From assembly GCA_902615145.1 (NCBI GenBank), contig CACMNK010000003.1:1-64000 (forward strand): a stretch of 64,000 nucleotides of DNA. Reading direction: 5' to 3'. The stretch comes from an uncultured Pelagibacteraceae bacterium (lineage in GTDB: Bacteria; Pseudomonadota; Alphaproteobacteria; Pelagibacterales; Pelagibacteraceae). Within the stretch, counting starts at the first letter, position 1. Each line of letters starts with the position of its first letter. The notes beneath the pieces are model-generated. The model was not told where the DNA came from. It made no database searches and saw nothing but the letters and a program-made list of their open reading frames with translations. Both the position numbers and the translations under genes were made by a program. Below, piece by piece: positions 14,799 to 20,057 of this stretch.

Positions 14799-16379
14799 TT
14801 AAAATACTAGTAGGCCAAGAATTACAAGCAATAAAAAACCTATTATAGATTGATTTCTGAAAGCTACCATTTCAGATCTTTTATCACTTAATGCATTATA
14901 AGAATTTGAGTTTTGAGGAATTTGTCCACTAGCCAAAAAAGTAAGAGCCTGATTAGCTTTATCCATTATTTCTGGAAATTCTGGTAATCTTTTTATTACT
15001 TCCGATGTGCTATTAATTGTTTCATTAATTGTAGTCATAGGGTTTTTTGTCTCTTTCAACCAGTTTTCAAGAATAGGTTTAGATGTAGTCCAAATGTTTG
15101 TTTCAGGATTCAATTTTCTTGCTACTCCTTCAACTACCACCATTGTTTTTTGTAACATTAATAACTGGGGTTGTGTCTGCATATTAAATTTTTCTGTGAC
15201 ATCAAAAAGTTGTTTTAACAATTTTCCACCGGATATATCTTTAACTGCTTGACCAAAAATAGGCTCACCTATAGATCTTAAAGCTTGAGCTAGATCATTT
15301 ATGGGGACATCTTTTGGTACTAGACCCGCGATTAAATGAACTTCAGCAACTTTTTTGTAGTCTCTTTGAATAAAACCAAAGAGTATTTCAGCTAAAAATC
15401 TTTTACTCATTTTATCGAGCCTGCCCATAATTCCAAAATCAATAGGAACAATATAGCCATCATTATCTATCAAAATATTTCCTTGATGCATATCAGCATG
15501 AAAAAAACCATCTCTAACGGCATGTCTAAGAAAATTTTGGATAATATCCTCTGCTAATTTCTTTGTATTTATATCTCTTTTTTTTAACTCACTAGTTTCT
15601 CTAATCGAGATACCCTCTACCCAGTCTAGTGTCATTACATTTTCACTAGTATAATTCCAGTAAATTTTTGGAACATTAAAACCAATATCATTTTTTGTGT
15701 TTTCTGCATATTCATTTGCAGCAGCAGCCTCAAACCTTAGATCCATTTCAAGATTAGTAATTTCTTTGAGTAAAAAAACTACTTCTACAAGTTTTAATCT
15801 TTTTGTTTTTTTTATTAAAGACTCAACTAAGAATGCAAATAACATAATAGCATCAATTTCATCGTTGAAAATTTTTTTAATATCAGGCCGCAAAATTTTT
15901 ATTGCAACATCTTTTATTATTCCATTGTCGTCTATTTTAGCTTTATGAACTTGAGCTATAGATGCAGCTGCAACAGGTTCGCTTAAATCAATAATTGAGT
16001 TATAGGTATCAATTCCTAAATCATCATTAATAATTTTTTTGGCTTGATCTTGGGAAAAAGGAGGCAATCTATCTTGAAGATTTTCAAGTTCCTTTGATAA
16101 ACCTTCTCCAATAATGTCTGGTCTTGTTGCTAAGAACTGACCTAGTTTTATAAAGGTTGTACCCATTGACTCTAAAGATTTAGATAACCTTTCTCCTTCA
16201 TTATTGGTTACACTTGTGTTATTTTTTGATGAAAAAGAGAAAGATAAAATTTTAAATAAAACTTTAATAGACAAAGGTGGCTCTTGAAATTTTGAGGTTA
16301 TATTTAAAATATCTGATTTTGCGATTTTTCTTCCAAGTTTAAATAATGTTATTAATTTTTTAATCATTATATTTTCCAA
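14799..16379 (-). CDS. ubiB: UbiB family protein (ABC1/ADCK kinase-like)
   Basis: LGQFLATRPDIIGEGLSKELENLQDRLPPF...AAASIAQVHKA...FFHADMHQGNILID...DFGIMGRL. Confidence 0.93.
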   Translation of the reverse strand: MENIMIKKLITLFKLGRKIAKSDILNITSKFQEPPLSIKVLFKILSFSFSSKNNTSVTNNEGERLSKSLESMGTTFIKLGQFLATRPDIIGEGLSKELENLQDRLPPFSQDQAKKIINDDLGIDTYNSIIDLSEPVAAASIAQVHKAKIDDNGIIKDVAIKILRPDIKKIFNDEIDAIMLFAFLVESLIKKTKRLKLVEVVFLLKEITNLEMDLRFEAAAANEYAENTKNDIGFNVPKIYWNYTSENVMTLDWVEGISIRETSELKKRDINTKKLAEDIIQNFLRHAVRDGFFHADMHQGNILIDNDGYIVPIDFGIMGRLDKMSKRFLAEILFGFIQRDYKKVAEVHLIAGLVPKDVPINDLAQALRSIGEPIFGQAVKDISGGKLLKQLFDVTEKFNMQTQPQLLMLQKTMVVVEGVARKLNPETNIWTTSKPILENWLKETKNPMTTINETINSTSEVIKRLPEFPEIMDKANQALTFLASGQIPQNSNSYNALSDKRSEMVAFRNQSIIGFLLLVILGLLVF

Positions 16380-17072
16380 CCACTATGAATTGAAACTATA
16401 CCACCAGATAAATTTGTATAATTACACTTATCAAATTTACTCTCATGCATTAAGTCTATGAGTTCATCTTGATTAACAAAATTTTCAATACTTTTAATTA
16501 AATACTGGTAAGGTTCTTTTTTTCCTACAACTATTTTTCCAATTTCTGGAATTAGCTTAGAATATTTTTCATAAAGATTATTTAAATTAGTGTTTTGAAT
16601 TTTTGAAAATTCAAGACATAAAAACCGACCACCTGGTTTTAAAACTCTGTATGCTTCTTTCAATGATTTTTTTATATTTTTTGTATTTCTTAATCCAAAA
16701 CTAATTGTATAAAAATCAAATGTATTACTTGAAACAGGCAAACTTTCAGCTGAGGATATATACCATTTTAGATTTTTACATTTAGGCAATTTTTTTTTAG
16801 CAATATTTATCATTCCCTTATTTGGATCAACACAAGTTACCTCGGCATTTTTTCCTACATTTTTTTAAGTAAATTTTAGCTATATCTCCTGTTCCACAAG
16901 CTACATCTATTAACTTTTGGTTTGTAGAAGGGTTCATCATATTTAAAAGGTTTTTTTTCCATATTCTATGCACACCTAGTGACATTAAATCGTTCATTAG
17001 GTCGTATTGATCGTAAACCTGGTTAAAGACATTTTGTACCAGTCCTTTTTTATTTTGAAGATACTGTTGCAT
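16367..17072 (-). pseudogene. ubiE: Demethylmenaquinone/ubiquinone methyltransferase UbiE split by a frameshift near 16860-16866
   Basis: N-terminal half 16827-17072 (...LMNDLMSLGVHRIWKKN...DVACGTGDIAKIYLKK) and C-terminal half 16367-16813 (MINIAKKK...FDFYTISFGLRNTKN...YRVLKPGGRFLCLEFSK) lie in different frames; the second frame reads VGKNAEVTCVDPNKGMINIA straight after the A7 run. Confidence 0.85.
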
Positions 17073-18019: not shown

Positions 18020-18280
18020 ATGGCTAATACAAAATCAGCAATCAAAAGAATAAGAAGAATATCAAAACAAACTTCTGTAAACAAAATCAGAAAGAGTAGA
18101 TATAAAAACGCAATAAAAAAAATGAATGTCCTATTGGAAAAAAAAGATAAATCAGAAGCTTTGAAATTCTTACCTAAGTTGAATTCTGAATTGATGAAGA
18201 TTGCTAAAACTGGGGTAATCAAAAAACAAAACGCTTCTAGAAATATTTCCAGAATAACGAAAAAAATTTCATCTATTTAA
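18020..18280 (+). CDS. rpsT: 30S ribosomal protein S20
   Basis: MANTKSAIKRIRRISKQTSVNKIRKSRYKNAIKK...GVIKKQNASRNISRITKKI. Confidence 0.95.
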   Translation: MANTKSAIKRIRRISKQTSVNKIRKSRYKNAIKKMNVLLEKKDKSEALKFLPKLNSELMKIAKTGVIKKQNASRNISRITKKISSI

Positions 18281-18290
18281 TCTATATTAA

Positions 18291-18311
18291 CGGTTGTTAA
18301 GAGATACAACC
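18291..18311 (+). other. Inverted repeat GGTTGT-N8-ACAACC after rpsT
   Basis: Perfect 6-bp stem, 8-nt loop; no strong T-tract follows, so terminator function uncertain. Confidence 0.4.
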
Positions 18312-18460
18312 TCAGGATCTACAAAATCTGTAATTAAAAGAAATTGTTATACAATATTTAGATTTAGTAAATAACCTGAACTCTTTTGATTCAATTAAAA
18401 ATTTTATTAACTAATTTATAAATAAAAAACGATACAAAAAAATTTCAATTAAAAAAATTC

Positions 18461-18564
18461 ACACAATCCTAGATTTTAATTTTTTTAGAATTTTTTTATA
18501 TTACACAATCCTAGATTTTAATTTTTTTTTTAAACTTGTTTGTATTACACAATCCTAGATTTTA
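18461..18564 (+). repeat. Three direct repeats ACACAATCCTAGATTTTA upstream of dnaA (18461-18478, 18503-18520, 18547-18564), each followed by a T-tract; candidate dnaA regulatory or origin element
   Basis: Exact 18-bp identity of three copies read directly; start-to-start spacing 42 and 44 bp. Confidence 0.85.
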
Positions 18565-18632
18565 TTTTTTTTTAAATTTATAAAATATTTTCTTGCAAAA
18601 ATTTTTATTATAGCTCTTACTGAACTCTCTTC

Positions 18633-20057
18633 ATGAATATGGAAAATAGCTACAAGAATCCAGAATTAAATAAATCTATTTCAAATAAATTAGATTGGCA
18701 ATTAATCCAAAACGAGATGAAAAAAAAATTGGGATCGGAAGTTTATGAAAGTTGGTTAAAAAAAATTAATTTTATTGAGGAATTCAATAATTATATACTG
18801 ATATCGGTGCCAACCAGATTTATTAGAGATTGGATAACATCAAGATATTTGGACCAAATCTTACAAATCGTCAAAATTTTTAAAAAAGATCTAATTAGGA
18901 TAGAATTTAAAATTGTAGAAAATAGTATTAATTTAGAAAATCAAAAAAATAGTGAAAGTTTATTGAAAAAAAATGAAAATATTTCATTTTTAAAGGACTC
19001 TTTTTTACAATACAATCGAGTTGATCATAATAAAAGATTTGAAAATTTTGTAACTGGTAGCAGTAATAAGCTTGCGTATGAGGCTTCATTAAAAGTTACC
19101 GAAAATCTGTCCCAATATAATCCTTTGTATATTTATGGAGGTGTAGGGATGGGTAAAACACATCTTTTAAATTCTATAGGTTTTGAATTAAAAAAAAGAA
19201 AAAAAGTAATGTTTATTCCAGCAGAACGTTTTATGTATCAATTTATTAAATCAATAAAAGCAAACGATATGGTAAGATTTAAAGAATATTTTCGAAACAC
19301 TGATATATTATTGATAGATGATATCCAATTTATGAACGGAAAAGAAGCTATGCAGGAGGAATTTTTTCATACCTTTAATGCTTTACTTGATAAAGGGAGT
19401 CAAATTATAGTATCTGCAGATAGATCTCCAAATAAATTATCTAGAATTCAAGAAAGAATAAAATCTAGATTCTCTGGAGGATTAGTTGTTGATATACAAA
19501 AACCTGATCTAGAATTAAGAAGGAATATAATTGAAAAAAAGATTAACGAATTAAATAAGCTTTATACAGATAAGATTGAAATTTCAAAGGAAATTAAAGA
19601 TTTTATAAGCCTTGAAATTTCTAACAGTATAAGAGAATTAGTTGGTGCTGTTAACCGTTTAATATCTTTCTCAAGAATTTATAATAAATTACCTAATTTG
19701 GCTGAAACTAAGGTAGTCTTAAAAGACTTACTAAATATTAATGAAAATAAAGTTACTATTGATTTAATACAGACTTTGGTGTGCAAATTTTTCAAAATTA
19801 GCAAAAATGAGATGTTGTCCTCAAGAAGATCAAGGTATCTGGTAAGACCTAGACAAACCGCTATATATCTCACTAAAATTCTTACACCAAAATCTTTACC
19901 GGAAATAGGTCGAGAATTTTCAAATAGAGATCATACAACTATAATTCATTCAGTCAAAACTATAGAAAGATTAAAAGAGAATGATAAGGATATGGCAGAA
20001 AATATAAATAATTTAAAGAACCAAATATTATATAATACAAAAGAAAATGAAGTTTAG
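18633..20057 (+). CDS. dnaA: Chromosomal replication initiator protein DnaA
   Basis: YNPLYIYGGVGMGKTHLLNSIG...DILLIDDIQFMNGKEAMQEEFFHTFNAL...RPRQTAIYLTKILTPKSLPEIGREFSNRDHTTIIHSVKTIE. Confidence 0.98.
   Translation: MNMENSYKNPELNKSISNKLDWQLIQNEMKKKLGSEVYESWLKKINFIEEFNNYILISVPTRFIRDWITSRYLDQILQIVKIFKKDLIRIEFKIVENSINLENQKNSESLLKKNENISFLKDSFLQYNRVDHNKRFENFVTGSSNKLAYEASLKVTENLSQYNPLYIYGGVGMGKTHLLNSIGFELKKRKKVMFIPAERFMYQFIKSIKANDMVRFKEYFRNTDILLIDDIQFMNGKEAMQEEFFHTFNALLDKGSQIIVSADRSPNKLSRIQERIKSRFSGGLVVDIQKPDLELRRNIIEKKINELNKLYTDKIEISKEIKDFISLEISNSIRELVGAVNRLISFSRIYNKLPNLAETKVVLKDLLNINENKVTIDLIQTLVCKFFKISKNEMLSSRRSRYLVRPRQTAIYLTKILTPKSLPEIGREFSNRDHTTIIHSVKTIERLKENDKDMAENINNLKNQILYNTKENEV

Follow-up and report, generated by a model that had tools for sequence, protein, structure and literature searches.

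Three exact copies of an 18-bp sequence stand directly upstream of dnaA in a SAR11 contig. Does this array mark the replication origin, does it control dnaA, and what kind of protein would bind it? The original prediction read it as a noncanonical binding array for DnaA or another protein, acting as oriC or as an autoregulatory region of dnaA. We compared the locus with the dnaA upstream regions and complete genomes of its relatives.

Repeat array in the rpsT–dnaA intergenic region

The window, i.e. the whole stretch of 64,000 nucleotides analysed here, is a SAR11 (Pelagibacteraceae) contig. The relatives of its dnaA were titled Pelagibacteraceae, Pelagibacterales or Candidatus Pelagibacter ubique, and its nearest DnaA relative was that of AG-920-L03 (99.6% identical). 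The gene order was mutM, rpsT (ending at position 18280), an intergenic region of 352 bp, dnaA (18633–20057, + strand; TIGR00362, 477.8 bits), which is the putative target gene, and dnaN. The 18-mer ACACAATCCTAGATTTTA occurred exactly three times in the intergenic region, at 18461–18478, 18503–18520 and 18547–18564 on the + strand, their starts being 42 and 44 bp apart. Each copy was followed by a T-tract (AAT7-10 or T9), confirming the three direct repeats as originally described. Together with their T-tracts, the distal copy spanned 18461–18486, the second copy 18503–18529 and the proximal copy (ACACAATCCTAGATTTTA-TTTTTTTTT) 18547–18573, all on the + strand; the proximal 18-mer started 86 bp 5' of the dnaA ATG. 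No further site with at most three mismatches to the 18-mer was found within the window. At this threshold, 0.17 matches were expected from dinucleotide shuffles, and no shuffle gave three. The searched part of the window's own genome contained no further exact copy.

A weaker, degenerate fourth copy (ATTCAATTAAAAATTTTA, 18389–18406, + strand) scored 14.7 bits with the core PWM. It aligned with the block TCAATYATAAATTTTATT, which was conserved in the genus in an alignment of 38 intergenic regions. A second block conserved in that alignment (TACAATATTTAGATTTAGTAAATA, 18350–18373, + strand) had a negative core-PWM score, so that it can be related to the element by eye only. Downstream of rpsT, a GGTTGT-8-ACAACC hairpin with no U run (18292–18311, + strand; −7.5 kcal/mol, z −1.4) was located in the genus-conserved sequence TACAACCTCAGGATCTACAAAATCT, and distant SAR11 genera had similar TACAACC/GTTGTA sequences near dnaA. 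Elsewhere in the window, a ubiE-like gene (16367–17072, − strand), assigned by its sequence to the class I methyltransferases, was split into two open reading frames by a frameshift. Both halves were in a single frame in the close relatives L104, L105 and L117; the split is probably an assembly or amplification error.

Conservation and near-exclusivity to dnaA

The element was scanned for with a core matrix in 105 rpsT–dnaA intergenic regions (a few genomes entered twice), the same regions from which this PWM had been derived. The element, to which the proximal copy of the window belongs, has the consensus WYWCAMTYNNAGATTTTATTTTTTTT and was present in 104 of the 104 Pelagibacteraceae regions; the sole region without it came from the sister family. 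The repeat was thus found throughout the genus and is not unique to the strain of the window. Its position was conserved as well: in 61/104 regions the ATG came 86 bp after the start of the last copy, and most others deviated from this distance by no more than 2 bp. Computed from 41 regions selected to be <75% identical, the information per column was 1.15 bits for the 18-mer, 1.05 bits for the T tract after it and 0.11 bits for the 60 columns upstream. The 18-mer and its T tract were the most conserved stretch, and the upstream flank had diverged. The element was kept in genera g9 (TTTCTATCCTAGATTTTATTTTTT) and g14 (TTCACTCATAGATTTTAAATTTTTT), where DnaA is about 56–60% identical. In genera g5, g6 and g7 it was not found, and TACAACC followed by T-rich DNA was present in the same place. 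It was likewise not found in sister family f2 (L214–L228), which had another conserved block, TTGCGATTCATTTTTA, between rpsT and dnaA. The element upstream of dnaA thus seems to differ from family to family.

Within genomes, the element appeared to be almost exclusive to dnaA. When the complete genome G012 was scanned with the PWM, the site at dnaA scored 33.6 bits versus 20.8 bits for the next best site. The exact 22-base core CAMTYNNAGATTTTATTTTTTT, a search that uses the same consensus as the PWM but covers whole genomes and includes a control, matched 40 of the 121 genus genomes with a single match in each, and the reversed pattern matched none of the 121. Fourteen of the 40 matches were in genomes with a known dnaA position, and all 14 were directly upstream of dnaA. 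Neither the PWM scan of G012 nor the exact search of the 121 genomes gave a second conserved target, as a regulon would have.

Most of the genus had one strong copy, often accompanied by a weaker copy (TCAATYATAAATTTTATT) located some 50–87 bp further upstream. Within the clade of the window (dnaA at least 87% identical), every scanned member had the proximal copy and one or two upstream copies, spaced by 42–46 bp. In the dnaA tree, three copies were present in the window, L007/L104 and L105, and two in L117. Since L117 is 98% identical and the difference amounts to about one 42-bp unit, it probably lost a copy recently through recombination between repeats, the order of gain and loss being read by parsimony from a small dnaA tree. 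Throughout these changes in copy number, the clade kept the proximal site. The spacings of 42 and 44 bp correspond to 4.0 and 4.2 turns at 10.5 bp, and the proposed helical-turn spacing holds for the window to this extent. Strict phasing across species found little support, because the weak copy is not at a constant distance in all species (about 50–87 bp). The A/T tracts were phased modestly above shuffles (p about 0.02–0.03).

Location of the replication origin

Could the array be oriC? Its AT-rich repeats adjoin dnaA, and no more than about 100 kb separates dnaA from the skew minimum. In the skew of a single genome, the complete relative G012, 12.5% of bootstraps fell at or beyond dnaA, with an interval of about 170 kb. 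When the skew was averaged over three complete genomes, its basin lay between −40 and +50 kb relative to hemE–PPSRP, and dnaA fell on its shoulder at −60 to −62 kb. The GC-skew check named in the original prediction therefore gave a combined minimum elsewhere than at dnaA, though the broad interval of the single genome spans dnaA.

Gene context and DnaA boxes were more decisive. The origins of Caulobacter and Rickettsia are located between hemE and COG1806 (PMC1914354), whereas the SAR11 array sits between rpsT and dnaA and has neither these flanking genes nor the boxes. SAR11 has the same hemE–COG1806 (PPSRP) locus elsewhere, with DnaA boxes. The hemE–PPSRP pair, with a gap of about 260–285 bp, was present in 30 of 30 same-genus genomes, including that of the window; in G012 the gap was 261 bp and contained two TTATTCACA boxes. 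Over the hemE–PPSRP regions, 24 exact TTATNCACA sites were counted versus 0.4 expected, with a box in 20/30 regions, and 130 sites were within one mismatch versus 25.3 expected. Among complete genomes with a listed dnaA position, both from this genus and from genus g12, dnaA was 60–73 kb from hemE–PPSRP. We place the SAR11 oriC with near certainty between hemE and PPSRP, an assignment based on synteny and boxes more than on skew. The proposal of an origin at the array was not borne out, given that 60–73 kb separate it from the box-rich hemE–PPSRP locus in the skew basin, and we regard an origin function of the array as barely credible. A single parS-like site (AGTTTCACGTGAAACA) was observed at G012:C1:1254719 (in L098), 7 kb from the candidate origin.

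Putative dnaA promoter and candidate binding proteins

The proximal copy was followed, at a nearly constant distance, by a conserved block that includes TTGCAA. This block can be read as the dnaA promoter (18593–18621, + strand), with TTGCAA as a −35-like hexamer (18593–18598), a spacer of about 17 bp and a −10-like TCTTAC region, although a consensus scan did not find a sigma-70 match. The element is a conserved sequence at a fixed position upstream of the −35 of this putative promoter. Its genus-wide fixed position, the adjoining promoter-like block and its near-exclusivity to dnaA support the predicted regulatory region of dnaA. The repeats are likely to be a promoter-upstream cis-regulatory array of dnaA, with candidate operator or activator sites for a DNA-binding protein. 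What the comparison shows directly is the sequence of the element, its conservation and position, its near-restriction to dnaA and the changes in copy number; action at the DNA level, binding of a protein and the setting of dnaA expression are inferred from this, and the effect could be positive or negative.

Which protein might bind was less clear. DnaA could repress its own gene from the array through noncanonical sites consisting of weak boxes and an AGATTT core. In E. coli, DnaA represses its own gene through TTATCCACA and through ATP-DnaA AGATCT boxes, and a DnaA box and AGATCT boxes are located upstream of E. coli dnaA (PMC8203912). Like the autoregulatory region of E. coli dnaAp1/p2, the SAR11 region has several short sites before dnaA and an AGAT-containing core. 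With dnaA as the only target, DnaA is an obvious candidate by logic, though not from its boxes. The left part of the motif, TTATWCAMT, is close to TTATNCACA, and the copies in the window contain TATTACACA or AAATTCACA, each with two mismatches. In addition, GATTTTATTTTTT is similar to the E. coli 13-mer GATCTNTTNTTTT, which was counted in favour of DnaA. Against DnaA, the canonical box TTATNCACA did not occur in 32 dnaA intergenic regions (0.8 expected), and the 15 sites within one mismatch were at chance level (17.5 expected). As originally noted, there was no perfect TTATNCACA box in the rpsT–dnaA intergenic region of the window. AGATCT was found in 4/32 dnaA regions (eight counts on both strands, versus 4.0, sd 2.9, in shuffles); the element itself carries AGATTT, not the ATP-DnaA box AGATCT. 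Conversely, the element was absent from the hemE–PPSRP regions, with a best core score of 10.6 bits. The SAR11 region also differs from dnaAp1/p2 in having no canonical DnaA box, in its core AGATTTTA instead of AGATCT, and in its arrangement as direct repeats with T tracts. With no canonical box and a one-mismatch count at chance, the boxes did not support DnaA as the binding protein, and autoregulation through this array seems unlikely.

DNA structure could act without a specific protein if the T tract and AT-rich stretch formed an UP element or curved DNA that boosts the dnaA promoter. The T8-9 tract is nearly invariant, AT-rich DNA is located directly 5' of the −35-like block, and the A/T tracts are phased above shuffles. 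However, the fixed C, A and G positions (CAMTY..AGATTTTA), which UP elements and bending do not need, were conserved as strongly as the T tract. The motif also occurred about once per genome, yet T tracts are abundant. We consider this explanation improbable, somewhat more so than DnaA; because the C, A and G positions are fixed, the conservation argues for a protein that reads the sequence. Still less plausible is a role in RNA, be it in the leader of dnaA or as a terminator of rpsT, to which the AATC-N3-GATT dyad with its T run in each copy might point. All three copies folded with an MFE of 0, so that no RNA hairpin was predicted; no terminator-like site and no Rfam match were found, and the dyad was not preserved in relatives (ACTCGGAGATT, AATCATAAATT). 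An IHF site was also considered, and its consensus, compared with both strands by eye, fitted poorly.

If the array is a protein-binding regulatory region of dnaA, the proximal copy would be an ancient, position-fixed site of a DNA-binding protein. Its centre would lie roughly 70 bp 5' of the putative transcription start, and about 30 bp 5' of the −35-like hexamer. Activators that contact the alpha subunit of RNA polymerase usually bind at such a distance, as do proteins at upstream operators. In the clade of the window, the site and its T-tract appear to have been tandemly duplicated, the second copy being a clade-specific duplicate of the copy conserved throughout the genus. Two or three proteins could then be bound at intervals of about four turns, and neighbouring proteins could cooperate, aided by modest bending at the A/T tracts. 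A dedicated, undescribed regulator may have the element as its only strong chromosomal target, with lineages tuning dnaA output via the number of sites. This proposal is tentative. It would be unusual for a regulator that is not DnaA to have a single target, which counts against the protein-bound reading as a whole.

Control of dnaA in SAR11

Pelagibacter has no CtrA ortholog (PMC2877005). SAR11 also apparently lacks CcrM, as it is listed as an exception to the conservation of this enzyme, though the printed sentence misses the word 'not' (PMC3973325). Control of dnaA in SAR11 must therefore differ from that in Caulobacter, for which promoter methylation and a cis element located 5' of the −35 have been proposed as controls (PMC8203912). 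As described there, the Caulobacter element resembles the SAR11 element in being alphaproteobacterial, upstream of the −35 and a proposed control of dnaA. The proposed response of Caulobacter dnaA to methylation sets it apart from SAR11, which appears to have no CcrM (PMC3973325). An incomplete literature search yielded no earlier paper on SAR11 dnaA regulation or on this element.

A rule that places the origin at dnaA would be about 60 kb off for SAR11. An origin at hemE–PPSRP matters for peak-to-trough growth estimates that assume an origin at dnaA. Few bacterial groups in the ocean are as abundant as SAR11, and with CtrA reported missing and CcrM apparently so, the question of what times its replication makes the element relevant. 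A promoter element almost restricted to dnaA would provide a handle on this question, as a short bait in a search for the regulator and as a target for a precise promoter change.
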